Below, one piece after another: positions 44,193 to 51,065 of a stretch of DNA of 64,000 bases. The position numbers and the translations under genes are program-made. The stretch comes from Phytoactinopolyspora limicola (GTDB taxonomy: Bacteria > Actinomycetota > Actinomycetes > Jiangellales > Jiangellaceae): NCBI RefSeq assembly GCF_011320225.1, contig NZ_JAAOEN010000019.1, positions 1 through 64,000 of the forward strand, read 5' to 3'. Every line of letters starts with the position of its first letter. The first letter of the stretch is position 1. The notes under the pieces were generated by a model, which saw nothing but the letters and a program-made list of their open reading frames with translations, was not told the origin of the DNA and searched no databases.

Positions 44193-45638
44193 TTACAGCG
44201 GGATGTTGCTGTGGGAGCCCCTGCGGGCGGGCGCTTCGGCCAGAGCCCGGGCTAGCGCGGAACGCGTCGACTTCTGCTCGACGATCTCGTCCACCACGCC
44301 GATGTCCATCGCCCGGTCGAGGCCGCCGGCTACCCGCTCGTGTTCCTCGGCGAGTTCGACCTCCACTTGCGGACGGAGTTCGGGGTCTACTTCGGCCAGC
44401 TTGCGCCGATGCAGGATCCGCACCGCCGCCACCGCGCCCATGACGGCCACCTCCGCCGTCGGCCACGCCAGGACCCGGGTGGCCCCCAGCGCCCGCGAGT
44501 TCATCGCGATGTATGCGCCGCCGTACGCCTTCCGCGTCACGAGCGTCACCCTTGGGACGCTGGCCTCAGCGAAGGCGTGCAGTAGCTTCGCGCCGCGGCG
44601 CACGACGCCGTCCCACTCCTGGCCCACGCCGGGTAAGTAGCCCGGTACGTCGACCACCACGACCAACGGCACGCCCAGTGAGTCGCACATTCGGACGAAC
44701 CGGGCCGCCTTCTCCGCCGAGGTGGAGTCCAGGCACCCACCCAACCGCAGCGGATTGTTGGCGACGACGCCGACGGTGCGCCCGCCGAGGCGGCCAAGGG
44801 TGGTGACGATGTTGGGCGCCCATTTGGCATGCAACTCCACCGCGGTGGACTCGTCGAGGAGGTCGTCGACGATCGGGTGGACGTCGTAGGCGCGTTTGGC
44901 GGACTCCGGGAGATGTATGCCCAGGTCGACGTCGTTGACACCGGCTGTGTCGATCTCTCCTTGGCTGCCCAGCAGGGACGCCAGCATCCGGGCGCGGCCA
45001 AGGGCGTCCTGTTCGGTGGAGGTGAGGACGTGCACCACGCCGGAGCGCCGCCCGTGTGGTTCTGGTCCACCCAGCCGGAGCATATCGACGTCCTCCCCGG
45101 TGACCGAACGTACGACGTCCGGGCCGGTGACGAACACCCGTCCTTCCGGTCCGAGGATGACGATGTCGGTCAGCGCGGGGCCGTACGCGGCGCCCCCGGC
45201 AGCCGGACCGAGCACCACCGAGATTTGCGGGATTGTGCCCGACGCCCGCGTCATGATCGCGAAGATCTGCCCGACGGCGTGGAGAGACAACACTCCCTCC
45301 GGCAGCCTGGCGCCACCGGAATGCCACAAGCCGATGATCGGGACACCTTCGGCCAGCGCCCGTTCGTAGGCCTGCACCACTACGCGGCAGCCGTCGTCGC
45401 CCATGGCGCCGCCCATCACCGTCGCGTCGGAGCAGAATGCCACCACCGGCGTGCCGTCTACGGTGCCGGCCGCGGCTAGCATGCCACTGCGGTCGTCCGG
45501 GCTGACCAGCTCCATCGAGCCGGCGTCCAGGAGCGCCTCGAGTCGGTGACGGGGATGGCGTGGGTCTTCGTCCCTGGACAGCCTCTCCGCCCCCGCGGCC
45601 GCTTGGGCTGGGACGGGACGGCTGTCGAGGGCTGTCAT
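44193..45638 (-). CDS. accD: Acyl-CoA carboxylase carboxyltransferase (beta) subunit
   Basis: 481 residues with fused N- and C-terminal carboxyltransferase halves, as in actinobacterial AccD/PccB proteins. Motifs are MVSPDD-like start, SGGARLPEGVLSLHAVGQIF, GPAAGGAAYGPALTDIVI in the first half and VVVDVPGYLPGVGQEWDGVVRRGAKLL, TLVTRKAYGGAYIAMNSR in the second. It transfers carboxyl groups from biotin to acetyl- or propionyl-CoA. The start shares one base with the fabF stop. Its biotin carboxylase/carrier partner (AccA) is not in the window. Confidence 0.9.
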   Translation of the reverse strand: MTALDSRPVPAQAAAGAERLSRDEDPRHPRHRLEALLDAGSMELVSPDDRSGMLAAAGTVDGTPVVAFCSDATVMGGAMGDDGCRVVVQAYERALAEGVPIIGLWHSGGARLPEGVLSLHAVGQIFAIMTRASGTIPQISVVLGPAAGGAAYGPALTDIVILGPEGRVFVTGPDVVRSVTGEDVDMLRLGGPEPHGRRSGVVHVLTSTEQDALGRARMLASLLGSQGEIDTAGVNDVDLGIHLPESAKRAYDVHPIVDDLLDESTAVELHAKWAPNIVTTLGRLGGRTVGVVANNPLRLGGCLDSTSAEKAARFVRMCDSLGVPLVVVVDVPGYLPGVGQEWDGVVRRGAKLLHAFAEASVPRVTLVTRKAYGGAYIAMNSRALGATRVLAWPTAEVAVMGAVAAVRILHRRKLAEVDPELRPQVEVELAEEHERVAGGLDRAMDIGVVDEIVEQKSTRSALARALAEAPARRGSHSNIPL

Positions 45639-46897
45639 CAGGGTTTCCTGAAGGCGAGGACGACGTTGTGTCCCCCGAAGCCGAACGCGTTGTTCAGCGC
45701 GGCGACTGGACCGTCGCCGAGTTTGCGCGGCTCACCACGCACCACGTCGAGACCGATCACCTCGTCGAGATGATCGACGTTGATAGTGGGCGGGATCTGA
45801 CCGTGGTGGACGGTGAGAACCGTGGCCAGCGCCTCCACCGCGCCGGCCCCACCGAGCAAGTGTCCGATCATCGACTTCGGTGCGGTGACCGGGATGCCCG
45901 CTATGACCTCGCCGAAGACCTTACGCAGGGCTAACGCCTCGGCGGCGTCGCCGACCGGCGTAGAGGTGGCGTGGCAGTTGATGTGGTTGATGTCCGACGG
46001 CCGAAGTCCGCCGTCGTCCAGCGCCTTACGAGTGGCCGCCATGACACCGGCGCCGTCGGGCTCCGGCTGCGCGATGTGGTGGGCGTCGGAGGTGATGCCG
46101 GCGCCGGCGAGTTCGGCGTAGACCGTGGCACCGCGCGCCTCGGCGTGTTCGGCCGATTCGAGGACGAACAACGCGCCGCCCTCACCCAGCACGAAACCAT
46201 CGCGATCTTTGTCGAATGGCCGGCTGACGGCCGTGGGGTCGCCTTCACGCTTCGACATCGCCATCATGTTGGCGAACGCGGCGATCGGCAGTGGGTGGAT
46301 CACGGCCTCCGTGCCGCCGGCGACGACGATGTCGGCGCGGCCCGATCGGATCATGTCCAGCCCGTACGCGATTGCCTCGGCACCCGACGAGCACGCACTA
46401 ACGGGCGTGTGCACGCCGGCCCGGGCTTGCAGCGCCAGGCCGACGTTGGCGGCCGGGCTGTTCGGCATCAGCATGGGAATCGCTAGTGGAGACACCTTGC
46501 GTGGGCCGTGTGCGAGCAGTTGATCGTAGTTGCCGAGCAGGGTGTGCAGCCCACCGATACCGGACGCGCAGACCACGCCGAACCGGTCCGGATCTACCCC
46601 GGTCTCCGACGCCTTGCCCTCGAAGCCGGCGTCGGCCCATGCCTGCCGCGCGGCGATCAAGGCGATCTGCGCCGACCGGTCGAGCCTGCGGGCCTCGACC
46701 CGCGGCAGGACCTCGGAGGGGTCGACAGCCACCGGGGCGCCGATGCGCACCGGCGACTGCTCGACCCACTCTTCGGTCAGGTGGCGCACGCCGCTGCGGC
46801 CGCTCAGCAGCGCGTCCCAGGTCGACGCGACATCACCACCAAGGGGCGTGCTCGCGCCGAGCCCCGTGACGACGACAGGAACCTGGGAACGTGCCAT
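45638..46897 (-). CDS. fabF: 3-oxoacyl-[ACP] synthase II
   Basis: 419 residues. The thiolase-fold active site is complete: Cys169 in VSACSSGAEA, His in NCHATSTPVGD, and His in SMIGHLLGGAGAVEA. It elongates acyl-ACP with malonyl-ACP. It starts 5 bp after acpP. Gene order fabD-fabH-acpP-fabF is the classic actinomycete arrangement. Confidence 0.95.
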   Translation of the reverse strand: MARSQVPVVVTGLGASTPLGGDVASTWDALLSGRSGVRHLTEEWVEQSPVRIGAPVAVDPSEVLPRVEARRLDRSAQIALIAARQAWADAGFEGKASETGVDPDRFGVVCASGIGGLHTLLGNYDQLLAHGPRKVSPLAIPMLMPNSPAANVGLALQARAGVHTPVSACSSGAEAIAYGLDMIRSGRADIVVAGGTEAVIHPLPIAAFANMMAMSKREGDPTAVSRPFDKDRDGFVLGEGGALFVLESAEHAEARGATVYAELAGAGITSDAHHIAQPEPDGAGVMAATRKALDDGGLRPSDINHINCHATSTPVGDAAEALALRKVFGEVIAGIPVTAPKSMIGHLLGGAGAVEALATVLTVHHGQIPPTINVDHLDEVIGLDVVRGEPRKLGDGPVAALNNAFGFGGHNVVLAFRKP

Positions 46898-46902
46898 GGT
46901 GA

Positions 46903-47157
46903 TCAGGCCTCCGCGCTAGCGTTCTTGATGTACGACACGGCGTCACCGACGGTGGCGAGGTTCTTGACCTCGTCCTCGGGGATCTTCACCCCGAACTTCT
47001 CTTCGGCGCCGACCACTACCTCGATCATCGACAGCGAGTCGATGTCGAGGTCGTCGGTGAACGACTTGTCGAGTTGGACGTCCGCCGCGGGGACGCCGGT
47101 GATCTCGTTGACGATCTCGGCGAGACCCGTCAGGATCTCTTCTTCGTTGCTGGCCAT
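46903..47157 (-). CDS. acpP: Acyl carrier protein
   Basis: 84 residues from ATG 47157 with GGAG-like sequence upstream. The phosphopantetheine attachment serine is Ser41 in DDLDIDSLSMIEVV. The protein is acidic as expected. It carries growing acyl chains for the FabD, FabH and FabF enzymes encoded around it. It lies 76 bp after fabH, a gap that may hold a second promoter or processing site because ACP is needed in excess. Confidence 0.95.
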   Translation of the reverse strand: MASNEEEILTGLAEIVNEITGVPAADVQLDKSFTDDLDIDSLSMIEVVVGAEEKFGVKIPEDEVKNLATVGDAVSYIKNASAEA

Positions 47158-47233: not shown

Positions 47234-48250
47234 TCAGGGTATGCGGACCACTTGGCCGGCGTAGACCAGCCCCGCCCCGAATCCGATGATGAGAGCGAGG
47301 TCACCACTCGTGGCCTCGCCGTTCTCCACCATCCGCTCCAGGGCCAGGGGGACCGACGCCGCCGACGTGTTGCCCTGGGTGGCGATGTCGCGGGCGATGG
47401 CCACCGAGTCTGGCAGTTTCAGCTGCCGCGCCATCGCGTCGGTGATGCGCATGTTGGCCTGGTGTGGGGCGAAGACGTCGAGGTCGGCCATGGTGATGCC
47501 GGCGGCGGCAACCGCCTCCTGCGCTACCTTCGCCATCTCGTACGATGCCCAGCGGAAGACGGGGTTGCCCTCCATGACCAGGTGGGGCATTTCTGGACCG
47601 TCCGCACCGAACAGCGCTTCGCGCCAGCCTTTCTTCTGCCGGATGTGGTCAAGGGCGGATCCGTCGGACCCCCACACCACTGGGCCGATGCCGGGCGGGT
47701 CGTCCGGGCCGCCCGGGCCGACTACCACGGCACCCGCGCCGTCGGCGAAGATGAACGCCGTCGAGCGGTCGTGCGGGTCGGTGAGGTCGGATAGCCGCTC
47801 GACGCCGATGACCAGCACGTGCCGGGACGTGCCGGCCCGGACCATATCCGAGGCCAGCGATAGTCCGTAGCAGAAGCCGGCGCACGCGGCGGAGATGTCG
47901 AACGCCGCCGCGCTGCCGGCGCCGAGTTTGTGGGCGATCTCCACTGCGGCCGACGGTGTCTGGTAGAGGTGGGTGACCGTGGCCACGACGACGCAGTCGA
48001 TCTGGTCGGGCTGGATGCCGGCGTGGGCGAGTGCTTTACCGGCCGCGGCCAGGCTCATCGATACCACTGTCTCGTCCGGGCCGGCCCAGCGGCGGGATTC
48101 GATACCCGACCGGGTCCGGATCCACTCGTCGGACGAGTCGATGTTCTTGACGATTTCGTCGTTGCCGACGACGCGGGTAGGCCGGTAGGCACCGAGGCCC
48201 AAGATTCGGCTGGTCCAGGCCGACGGGGGTAGCGCTATCTGGGCGCTCAT
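47234..48250 (-). CDS. fabH: 3-oxoacyl-[ACP] synthase III
   Basis: 338 residues. Active-site Cys123 lies in DISAACAGFCYGL, with His in FAPHQANMRITDAM and Asn in QGNTSAASVPLAL. It starts fatty-acid synthesis by joining an acyl-CoA (often branched in actinomycetes) to malonyl-ACP. The ATG overlaps the fabD stop by 4 bp. Confidence 0.95.
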   Translation of the reverse strand: MSAQIALPPSAWTSRILGLGAYRPTRVVGNDEIVKNIDSSDEWIRTRSGIESRRWAGPDETVVSMSLAAAGKALAHAGIQPDQIDCVVVATVTHLYQTPSAAVEIAHKLGAGSAAAFDISAACAGFCYGLSLASDMVRAGTSRHVLVIGVERLSDLTDPHDRSTAFIFADGAGAVVVGPGGPDDPPGIGPVVWGSDGSALDHIRQKKGWREALFGADGPEMPHLVMEGNPVFRWASYEMAKVAQEAVAAAGITMADLDVFAPHQANMRITDAMARQLKLPDSVAIARDIATQGNTSAASVPLALERMVENGEATSGDLALIIGFGAGLVYAGQVVRIP

Positions 48251-49431
48251 GGCGACACCGCCTCCGGATGCAGTCTAACGAGGGGTTGGCCGGGGGCGAC
48301 CGGATCGCCGTCCTCCACCAGCCATTCCAGCACGGTTCCGCCGTGGGCGGCTCGGATTTCCCGCGAGTCGCGTAACGACGTGACGGTACCAACGTGGTCA
48401 CCAGGTGCGAGCTGCGCACCGGCCTCTAGCGTCGCGGCGTTGAAGGTACCTTTCATGGGGGCGACGACCAGGCGCCACGTGGGGCTCGCCGTCATGGGAC
48501 TGGGTGCTCCGTGCCGCTCGACGAAGCGGCGCGCCTCGTCGAGCTGGTCGGGTGTCTTCAACGCGAACGTCTCGACGCCCGGAATGGCTCGTCGAGCCAA
48601 GCCGGTGAGAGTGCCGGCGGGCGGGACCTCCAGGATGCCGGTGATTCCCAGGTCGGCCATGGTGGCCTGACAGAGATCCCACCGGACCGGGTTGGACACC
48701 TGCTCGACGATGCGATCGAGAACCTCGCGACCGCTGTGCACCACGTGCCCGTCCCGGTTGGACAGCAGCCTGGTCCGGGGATCGTGAGTGCTGATGGCGC
48801 TGGCATAGCGGCGCAGTGTGTCTACGGCCGGTGCCATGTGGTGAGTGTGGAAGGCGCCGGCCACTGACAACGGGCGCAGCCGGGCTCCCTCGGGTGGGTC
48901 GGCTTTCAGCGCGTCGAGCTGCTCAAGCGTGCCGGCGGCGACGATCTGGCCGGCGCCGTTGACGTTGGCCGGGGTCAGTCCGTGTTTGTCCAGGACCTGG
49001 AGGACGTGGTCGGAGTCGCCCCCCAGCACCGCGGTCATGCCGGTCGGGGTGGCGTTGGAGGCGGCGGCCATAGCTCGGCCGCGCTCGCGGACGAACACCA
49101 TGGCCTGCTCGGCGGTGATGACGCGTGCACCGGCGGCGGCGGTGATCTCTCCGACGCTGTGTCCGGCCACAGCGGTCACCGCGTGGTAAGCGTCGGCAGG
49201 GTGTGGGAAGAGCTCGAGCGCGGCGACGAGGCCAGCGGCCACGAGTAGAGGCTGGGCGATGGCGGTGTCGCGGATGGTGTCGGCGTCGGCTTCGGTGCCG
49301 TAGTGCGCGAGGTCGAGCCCGGCGACGGCCGACAGCCACTCGATCCGGTTGGCGAAGGTGGGCTCTTCCAGCCACGGGGTGAGGAAGCCGGGGGTCTGAG
49401 AGCCCTGTCCGGGCGCGACGATGACCAACAC
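48247..49431 (-). CDS. fabD: Malonyl-CoA:ACP transacylase fused to a lysine-less biotinyl-like domain
   Basis: 394 residues from GTG 49431 (GGTGG-type site just upstream); ordinary FabD is about 300-320. Residues 1-305 are FabD: APGQGSQTPGF, catalytic Ser92 in GHSVGE, and AFHTHHM with the catalytic His. Residues 318-394 align with biotin-carrier domains from VVAPMKGTF to GGTVLEWLVEDGDPVAPGQPLVRL. Where the carrier motif EAMKMENEVRA is expected the sequence is TSLRDSREIRA, so the biotinylated lysine is Arg354 and the flanking Met residues are lost. The tail may dock onto the acyl-CoA carboxylase, whose AccD subunit is encoded in the same operon. Confidence 0.9.
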   Translation of the reverse strand: MLVIVAPGQGSQTPGFLTPWLEEPTFANRIEWLSAVAGLDLAHYGTEADADTIRDTAIAQPLLVAAGLVAALELFPHPADAYHAVTAVAGHSVGEITAAAGARVITAEQAMVFVRERGRAMAAASNATPTGMTAVLGGDSDHVLQVLDKHGLTPANVNGAGQIVAAGTLEQLDALKADPPEGARLRPLSVAGAFHTHHMAPAVDTLRRYASAISTHDPRTRLLSNRDGHVVHSGREVLDRIVEQVSNPVRWDLCQATMADLGITGILEVPPAGTLTGLARRAIPGVETFALKTPDQLDEARRFVERHGAPSPMTASPTWRLVVAPMKGTFNAATLEAGAQLAPGDHVGTVTSLRDSREIRAAHGGTVLEWLVEDGDPVAPGQPLVRLHPEAVSP

Positions 49432-49703: not shown

Positions 49704-50879
49704 TCACTCCGGATGTGGCGGGTGTAGCCGTCCCAACGTCAACGCCAACCGCAGCGTGTACGAATCGCGGGCGTCGGTGGGTGTGAGTCCTACCACGTCC
49801 GTCACCCGGCGTAGCCGGTACCGCACCGTATTCGGGTGGACGAACAAGAACCTGGCCGCCGCCTCCACGGACGCACCCGTCTCCAGATAAGCCGCCAGTG
49901 TCTCCAGGACGACCGGACCCGCCTCAGCCACCGGGAAGTACACTTCCGCGACCAACTCGCGCACGGCGTCCTGATCTCCGGACAACGCCCGCTCGGGCAG
50001 GAGTGCCGACGCCGCCACCGGGCGAGGGGCATCCGGCCAGCCGTCCGCCGCGACAAGCCCCGAGACCGCGGCCCGCGCCGACTGCGCCGCCGAGACGAGG
50101 TCCGGTACCAGCGGCCCCACCACCACCGGCCCCGGGCCGAAGTGACTCACCAGGCTCTTCGCCGCCCGCACCGGATCCTCGACGCCACCGAGGATCGCGA
50201 CCAGTCGATCGCCCTGCATGCCGGTCAGCACGTCGTATCCGGCTTTGCGGGCGCTCCGGCGGATGTCGTCCACGGTGTTGTCGCGCACCGCGGGAGGCCG
50301 GCCGATGATGACGGTCACACCGCCCTCGGCCATCCATCCCAGCGCTGACGCCCGCGAGCGGACGCCCTCGTCGGCTTCACCTCGCAAGAGCGAATCGACG
50401 ACGGTCGCCTCCAGTCGCGCGTCCCACGACCCCCGTGCCTCGGCGTAGCGGGCGTAGACGTGTGCCGCCGAGAACGCCACCTCGCGTGAATACCGCAAGA
50501 CACCTTCGAGCACCGCGGGCGCGTCGTCATCACCCACGACGTCGGCGACGTTGTCCTCGACCACCTCGATGGCGACCCGCACGACCTCCACCGTCTGCTG
50601 CAGGCTGATCGCGCGGATCAGATCCCGGGGAGCGGTGCCGAAGATGTCCGCGGTGGGTGTCGGACGGGCGTGGCGCGGGTTGCGATACCAATCGACGAAG
50701 GCCGCGATGCCAGCCTGGATCACCAATCCCACCCATGATCGCTGCTCCGGCGGCATCGCTCGGTACCACGACAGCTTGTCTTCCATCTTGGCGATGGCCG
50801 CCGTGGCGAGCGGTCCCGTGGCACGCTCGAGCAGATGCACGGTGCGCTCGTGACGCTTGGTGTCGCGGCGTGGAGACAT
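49704..50879 (-). CDS. PucR-family regulator of fatty-acid synthesis (FasR-like)
   Basis: 391 residues from ATG 50879. The N-terminal half is an all-helical RsbRD/CdaR-like region, the middle a GGDEF-like regulatory fold, and the C-terminus a PucR helix-turn-helix (LETLAAYLETGASVEAAARFLFVHPNTVRYRLRRVTDVVGL). Position directly upstream of fabD in the same orientation is the arrangement of Streptomyces FasR, an activator of the fab operon. No clear ribosome site precedes the ATG. Confidence 0.87.
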   Translation of the reverse strand: MSPRRDTKRHERTVHLLERATGPLATAAIAKMEDKLSWYRAMPPEQRSWVGLVIQAGIAAFVDWYRNPRHARPTPTADIFGTAPRDLIRAISLQQTVEVVRVAIEVVEDNVADVVGDDDAPAVLEGVLRYSREVAFSAAHVYARYAEARGSWDARLEATVVDSLLRGEADEGVRSRASALGWMAEGGVTVIIGRPPAVRDNTVDDIRRSARKAGYDVLTGMQGDRLVAILGGVEDPVRAAKSLVSHFGPGPVVVGPLVPDLVSAAQSARAAVSGLVAADGWPDAPRPVAASALLPERALSGDQDAVRELVAEVYFPVAEAGPVVLETLAAYLETGASVEAAARFLFVHPNTVRYRLRRVTDVVGLTPTDARDSYTLRLALTLGRLHPPHPE

Positions 50880-51065
50880 ATTCGGCAGCGTACGCGGCCA
50901 CCTTCGTCGCCCGGACAACCGCGTGTTGTCGTGTTGGCACAATCGACGGGCTCCGGCGCCGTCACCCCGGCGTGGACTCCGCCGTCCTCGTGGTAGCTCA
51001 GGAGTAGCTCATGGCTGGCACAGGCACTAGGAACAACACCCCGTCCGGCGCTAGGCTGACGCCCT

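Follow-up and report, generated by a model that had tools for sequence, protein, structure and literature searches.

The FabD protein encoded in the window (the whole 64,000-nucleotide stretch of Phytoactinopolyspora limicola DNA that was analysed) ends in a C-terminal tail that is, to judge from profile matches and alignments, a biotinyl-type domain without the biotin lysine. Our leading reading, held with middling confidence, is that this dead biotin-carrier domain most likely acts to bind the AccD6-type carboxyltransferase encoded in the same operon, which would keep FabD near the source of its substrate.

The fabD gene was found at the head of a tightly packed cluster in the order fabD-fabH-acpP-fabF-accD, with accD in last place, as the earlier note had described for the operon. 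The last four bases of fabD overlap the start of fabH, and fabF and accD share one base. The names fabH, acpP and fabF are those that we take to fit the sequences and the gene order. The features were located as follows (window positions):

48247..49431, minus strand: fabD, 394 codons plus stop, an open reading frame of 394 amino acids
48517..49431, minus strand: FabD core, residues 1-305 (profile and structure matches)
48484..48516, minus strand: linker, residues 306-316, variable, pLDDT <50 at 315-317
48265..48483, minus strand: pseudo-biotinyl domain, residues 317-389 (profile matches, alignments and AlphaFold2 model)
48370..48372, minus strand: codon of Arg354, the residue aligned with the biotin lysine
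47234..48250, minus strand: fabH, presumed from sequence and gene order
46903..47157, minus strand: acpP, presumed likewise, start set at the ATG of MASNEEE
45638..46897, minus strand: fabF, presumed likewise
44193..45638, minus strand: accD, best PDB match AccD6 of Mycobacterium tuberculosis (4fb8)
45045..45089, minus strand: AccD segment 184-198 (VDML-R188-LGGPEPHGRR), with residues that vary along with the FabD tail

In a comparison of the operon AccD with PDB sequences, AccD6 (4fb8) was matched with an E value of 1.7e-193, and the next group began at 2.7e-120. Judged by sequence, the accD product is an AccD6-type carboxyltransferase, nearest to AccD6 among the solved carboxyltransferases. 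A gene for a PucR-like regulator (49704-50942, minus strand) was present upstream of fabD and in many relatives, sometimes on the opposite strand; its family and any role in fatty acid metabolism are our assumptions. A separate accB-accC pair with a true biotin motif (EVMKLMV) was identified elsewhere in the same genome (locus L207, contig C3).

Residues 1-305 are FabD by fold and by active-site residues. Ser92, His195 and Arg117, which we take to be the catalytic residues, were located in invariant columns of an alignment of 69 rows. The structural model of FabD superposed on 1nm2 with a Z score of 48.6 and an rmsd of 1.0 over 303 residues; this comparison was restricted to FabD residues 1-310, contained no biotinyl chain among the rows shown and is uninformative on the tail. 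The NCBIfam models of FabD and MdcH matched the protein far under their curated cut-offs (for TIGR00128, a score of 160.8 against a cut-off of 260.9).

The tail alone matched the biotin/lipoyl domain model PF00364 with 25.5 bits, above the cut-off of 22.1, and the whole FabD scored 21.0 bits, slightly below it. All 27 tails of an alignment of relatives (A2) matched PF00364 at E ≤ 0.01, and a PDB search with the profile built from this alignment matched, at 4e-12, the biotin subunit of methylmalonyl-CoA carboxyltransferase. These matches bear out the description of the protein in the earlier note as FabD with a biotinyl-like tail. The replacement of the biotin lysine by arginine, also claimed there, was confirmed in alignments with biotin carriers, in which Arg354 aligned onto the biotin lysine; on these alignments, the domain can no longer be biotinylated. 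The structure prediction proposed earlier for the tail was obtained with AlphaFold2, and residues 321-390 were modelled as beta strands with block-mean pLDDT of 85-94. The linker between core and tail is probably flexible according to the model, in which residues 315-317 had pLDDT <50; the pTM of the FabD model was 0.79. A frameshift, which had been named as a sign of an assembly artefact that would undo the idea, is not the origin of the tail, because FabDs of the same genus and family retain it in frame at whole-protein identities of 73-88%. One fabD copy of the same genus was excluded owing to a run of N inside the gene.

The tail was found to be widespread in the class, which answers the search for homologues that had been proposed. 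With a 27-row tail profile, it was detected in 105 of 296 genomes drawn from the class (tallied by hand from the listing), 22 of which belonged to the window's own family. The earlier statement that FabD normally has no such domain therefore fails in this class. The best matches fell into two groups: the 105 genomes scored at least 63 bits, and the highest match below them, in a 703-residue frame, had 52 bits. Among 296 genomes drawn from the phylum, only two scored above 60 bits, the window's own and that of one more member of the class, so the tail belongs, on this sampling, to the class. Tailed FabDs were found in Jiangella, Haloactinopolyspora, Nocardioides, Actinopolymorpha and Desertihabitans as well as in uncultured lineages, and the FabD locus of P. 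alkaliphila showed 88% identity to that of the window. All 80 retained named FabD loci were tailed, in a set biased towards best matches. Two contigs titled Bifidobacterium breve (MAG; L057 and L063) encode FabDs 71% identical to that of the window and are probably mislabelled bins. In locus L200 (genome G124), the middle of the tail including the hairpin was missing and both ends were present; L204, of the same genus, was tail-less.

Selection on the tail was compared with that on the core using the window and six relatives. For the tail, pN/pS ranged from 0.15 to 0.29 and the corrected dN/dS from 0.06 to 0.15; for the core, the ranges were 0.13-0.28 and 0.09-0.20. The corrected values are less certain because synonymous sites in the tail were near saturation. 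By these ratios, the tail is under strong purifying selection, as strong as that on the core. Conservation was further analysed in 116 distinct tails, obtained after removing five identical sequences (a separate 128-row tail alignment includes duplicate genomes). Mean top-residue frequencies were 0.80 for residues 317-330 and 0.86 for residues 363-389; the FabD core gave 0.77 and the hairpin region (345-362) 0.53. The maxima in the distinct tails were located in the N- and C-terminal strands, away from the Arg354 hairpin; in true carriers, the lysine hairpin is the most conserved part. W319, R320, E369, W370, D376, Q382 and R386 were present at frequencies of at least 0.97 in the distinct tails, and among 27 later tails W370 was kept in 21 and R386 in 24. 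These invariant residues near the linker suggest, from their positions in the alignment, a second surface besides the hairpin.

Repeated changes of tail state on the FabD tree (at least 10 among 97 rows and at least 12 among 132 rows), together with the L200 tail that has lost its middle, would be in line with an inert relic of a former FabD-BCCP fusion. This explanation is largely refuted by the conservation, as selection on the tail equals that on the core and several residues are near-invariant, and we regard it as very improbable.

Lysine at position 354 was found in none of the 116 distinct tails and in none of 27 further tails, 24 of which were new. Arginine occupied the position in 103 of the 116 and in 23 of the 27 later tails. 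As to whether Arg354 is conserved, a point raised in the earlier note, the residue is frequent but not essential, and its candidacy as the sole key residue was rejected: it accompanies accD yet is dispensable. By gene context, it was present in 91 of 98 distinct tails from accD-bearing operons, in 1 of 5 from accD-less operons, whose lineages are few, and in 11 of 13 with unresolved context. Because Arg354 can be replaced and the strongest conservation lies outside the hairpin, it is not evident that the domain works through its former carrier site.

To identify positions that vary together with the tail, 1945 alignable positions of the FabD core, FabH, AcpP, FabF, AccD and the PucR-like protein were screened in 93 accD-bearing operons, and the screen was repeated with the 91 non-identical operons; AceE gave no testable position in the 93-row run. 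The best tail-tracking positions were AccD 188, 184 and 196 (phi 0.87, 0.80 and 0.77), with equal ranks at 93 and 91 rows. Among 1858 windows of 15 residues, AccD 184-198 was at the top, and the next region was FabD 67-87. Among accD-bearing operons, 59 of the 62 with a tail and 2 of the 29 without one encode AccD Arg188; for the GRR motif (196-198), the corresponding numbers are 61 and 5. Across 25 family codes, the AccD of tailed operons read R-LGGPEPHGRR-SG with little variation, and that of tail-less operons mostly differed. The exceptions for Arg188 were L164 (K), L237 (S) and L238 (T) among tailed loci, and L201 and L200, the latter with the incomplete tail, among tail-less loci; L117, with K in AccD, was left uncounted because its FabD is partial. 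These data agree with the guess in the earlier note of a link between the tail and the AccD of the same operon; the seating of FabD on the carboxylase and the channelling of malonyl-CoA suggested there remain proposals.

Both states were found within family f25: AccD with R..GRR was present in 9 of 9 tailed operons examined, and among the tail-less operons, 6 had an AccD lacking Arg188 and 9 were counted as having no accD after fabF. A subset of loci from this family (L210-L229; genomes of 1.0-2.2 Mb) was also inspected. All 8 tailed loci fetched had accD with R..GRR; of the 12 tail-less loci fetched, the 10 with room for accD lacked it, one had an AccD with K and RKN, and one ended early.

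The 50 positions that reached a phi of 0.5 were put through a Pagel-type likelihood test on both a FabD tree and an AccD tree. AccD 188, 198, 184 and 197 led on the FabD tree, followed by FabH 271 and AcpP 17 (LR 16.4 and 15.6). On the AccD tree, AccD 188, 184 and 198 led, followed by FabD 32 and FabD 112 (20.6 and 20.1) and AccD 197. For AccD Arg188, the LR was 24.7 on the FabD tree (uncorrected p 6e-5) and 30.3 on the AccD tree (p 4e-6); after correction for 1945 positions, the AccD-tree value survives and the FabD-tree value fails. AccD 188 ranked first in every version of the screen and on both trees. The AccD sites were chosen and scored on one data set, the trees came from quick searches and have modest support, and the likelihood optimiser was rough (AccD 198 gave LR 17.5 in one run and 22.1 in another). 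Sign tests on independent pairs were non-significant in all versions (p 0.06 to 1); for Arg188, averaged counts held no pairs against the association, with only 1 to 6 supported pairs.

These analyses drew on overlapping locus sets. The 97-row set leaves out the partial FabD loci L114, L117, L122 and L128 as well as loci that appear accD-less with fewer than 1000 bases after fabF. The 132-row set drops the same loci plus L223, L229, L235, L248 and L249; L223 has 1663 bases after fabF and no accD, and its inclusion would add one tail-less, accD-less row. Two duplicate genomes are included in the 132-row set and its sign tests, and the final counts and the screen are free of duplicates. L200 was scored as tail-less in the 132-row set, the final counts and the screen, and as tailed in the 97-row set and an earlier sign test on Arg188. 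Of the 80 named loci, 11 are in the 97-row and 132-row sets and 12 in the AccD-segment set.

Presence of accD was examined separately. Among 130 non-identical loci with usable context, accD followed fabF in 62 tailed loci and was missing in 5, and the tail-less loci comprised 29 with and 34 without it. Mere presence of accD was rejected as what the tail tracks: the counts are suggestive, but independent pairs were non-significant and some ran in the opposite direction. In families f28 and f33, the tailed operons examined had accD (1 and 2) and the tail-less ones lacked it (4 and 3). The tailed operons without accD were L032, L146, L147, L148 and L150. The gene was then sought in ten genomes whose operons lack accD. 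In nine of them the best matches were paralogues with 45-49% identity; the remaining genome, G111, had a 59% AccD match elsewhere, with G in place of Arg188 and GRK in place of GRR. Faster divergence of the tail in accD-less operons was considered and dropped, the difference being non-significant (p 0.13).

In L032 (Phytoactinopolyspora halophila), neither an operon accD nor a close copy in the matching genome (G005) was found, and the FabD tail was intact and fully typical. The loss of accD in this lineage is perhaps recent.

A separate accB, encoding an E. coli-type carrier, was also considered as a confounder or third factor and rejected. Relatives of the accB of the window's genome were detected at E ≤ 1e-12 in 12 of the 79 genomes searched, the window's own included, namely in 5 of the 50 genomes with a tail and 7 of the 29 without, after two genomes had been omitted. 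On these counts, a separate accB does not explain the pattern of tail and AccD.

That the FabD tail and the AccD loop change together suggests, at the level of sequence comparison, a physical or functional link between the enzymes; such joint variation can arise from contact, from common regulation or from a third partner that both share. A possible but distinctly less probable explanation places the tail within FAS-II, where it would pack on the FabD core, AcpP, FabH or FabF and aid folding, assembly or ACP delivery, and the association with AccD would mostly reflect the shared ancestry of linked genes. The position of the most conserved tail residues in the terminal strands near the linker fits such a role, as does the retention of most of W319, R320, E369, W370, D376, Q382 and R386 where accD is gone; in addition, the FabD 67-87 windows came second, and FabD W32, FabH 271 and AcpP 17 also track the tail. 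Against it, AccD 188 came first in each version of the screen, and no firm packing of the tail on the core was predicted, given the low confidence of the linker and the pTM of 0.79. FabD core residues 32, 72, 75, 77 and 82 (49186-49338, minus strand, for residues 32-82) were likewise among the positions tracking the tail, and the tail might come to rest on residues 32-82 of the core. The second surface of the tail possibly faces the core around W32 and residues 67-87.

The tail may instead act as a brake, which we judge unlikely; it would sit on the carboxylase in place of the genuine biotin carrier and cut malonyl-CoA output to a degree set by the abundance or state of FabD. The analogy is with the plant BADC proteins, lysine-free carriers that the tail directly resembles. 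According to the excerpts of PMC11926652 and PMC7712654, BADC are 25-30% identical to BCCP subunits, have no biotinylation motif and exert their effect on acetyl-CoA carboxylase, and some authors have proposed that they are inhibitors. In the same excerpts, however, BADC are described on the BC/BCCP side, and inhibition versus assembly is disputed (PMC11926652), whereas the six-protein operon screen points to AccD.

In the preferred reading, binding to the carboxyltransferase, the dead carrier domain would still bind a carboxylase, as carriers do, and FabD would thereby be held there. Direct contact between the tail and AccD may speed or balance the handover of malonyl-CoA to FabD. As a guess, docking might occur at AccD segment 184-198, whose three arginines would meet the acidic turn EDGD of the tail (residues 373-376). 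In a bolder form of this reading, which we consider less likely than not, the tail domain would be old in the class and would tend to go when AccD6 is lost or the docking loop is altered. The LGG part of the AccD loop was also considered as an oxyanion hole and rejected. Gly193-194 of AccD5, assigned to substrate binding in the excerpt of PMC5311964, map near AccD 148-149 here, outside the loop (mapping by the offset at the alignment start, 51 to 96).

No report of a FabD-biotinyl fusion was found in the open-access literature among the matches listed, and none of channelling between acetyl-CoA carboxylase and FabD was found in that literature. Biotinyl domains and lysine-free carriers are already known; one borne on FabD across much of a class and varying with AccD6 is new as far as searched. 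To our knowledge, physical contact between bacterial acetyl-CoA carboxylase and type II fatty acid synthesis is an open question. If the tail binds AccD6, it would, in a large part of the actinomycetes, form a compact link from the committed step to the enzyme that first uses its product, and would offer a natural handle for malonyl-CoA engineering. We know of few lysine-free relatives of biotin carriers besides plant BADC, and the tail would join them.

Compared with known systems, the tail resembles the biotinyl domains of PF00364 in sequence profile, length and predicted strands, but differs in lacking the lysine of the biotin site, in being fused to FabD and in having its highest conservation in the terminal strands rather than in the hairpin. 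Plant BADC, as described in the excerpt of PMC11926652, likewise have a carrier-like domain without the biotinylation motif and are linked to acetyl-CoA carboxylase. In that description, BADC is a separate subunit found with BC and BCCP, whereas the tail is the C-terminal part of FabD, which consumes malonyl-CoA, and the joint variation here points to the carboxyltransferase subunit. Ordinary FabDs (1nm2, and 2qc3 from M. tuberculosis) share the core fold, over residues 1-308 and 1-302, respectively, but they are 305 and 302 residues long and tail-less. The mycobacterial operon has the order fabD-acpM-kasA-kasB-accD6. There too, an AccD6 orthologue is encoded close to fabD (two loci of family f4); unlike in the tailed operons, FabD is tail-less, and AccD6 has S or T in place of Arg188 and HKK or GKK in place of GRR.
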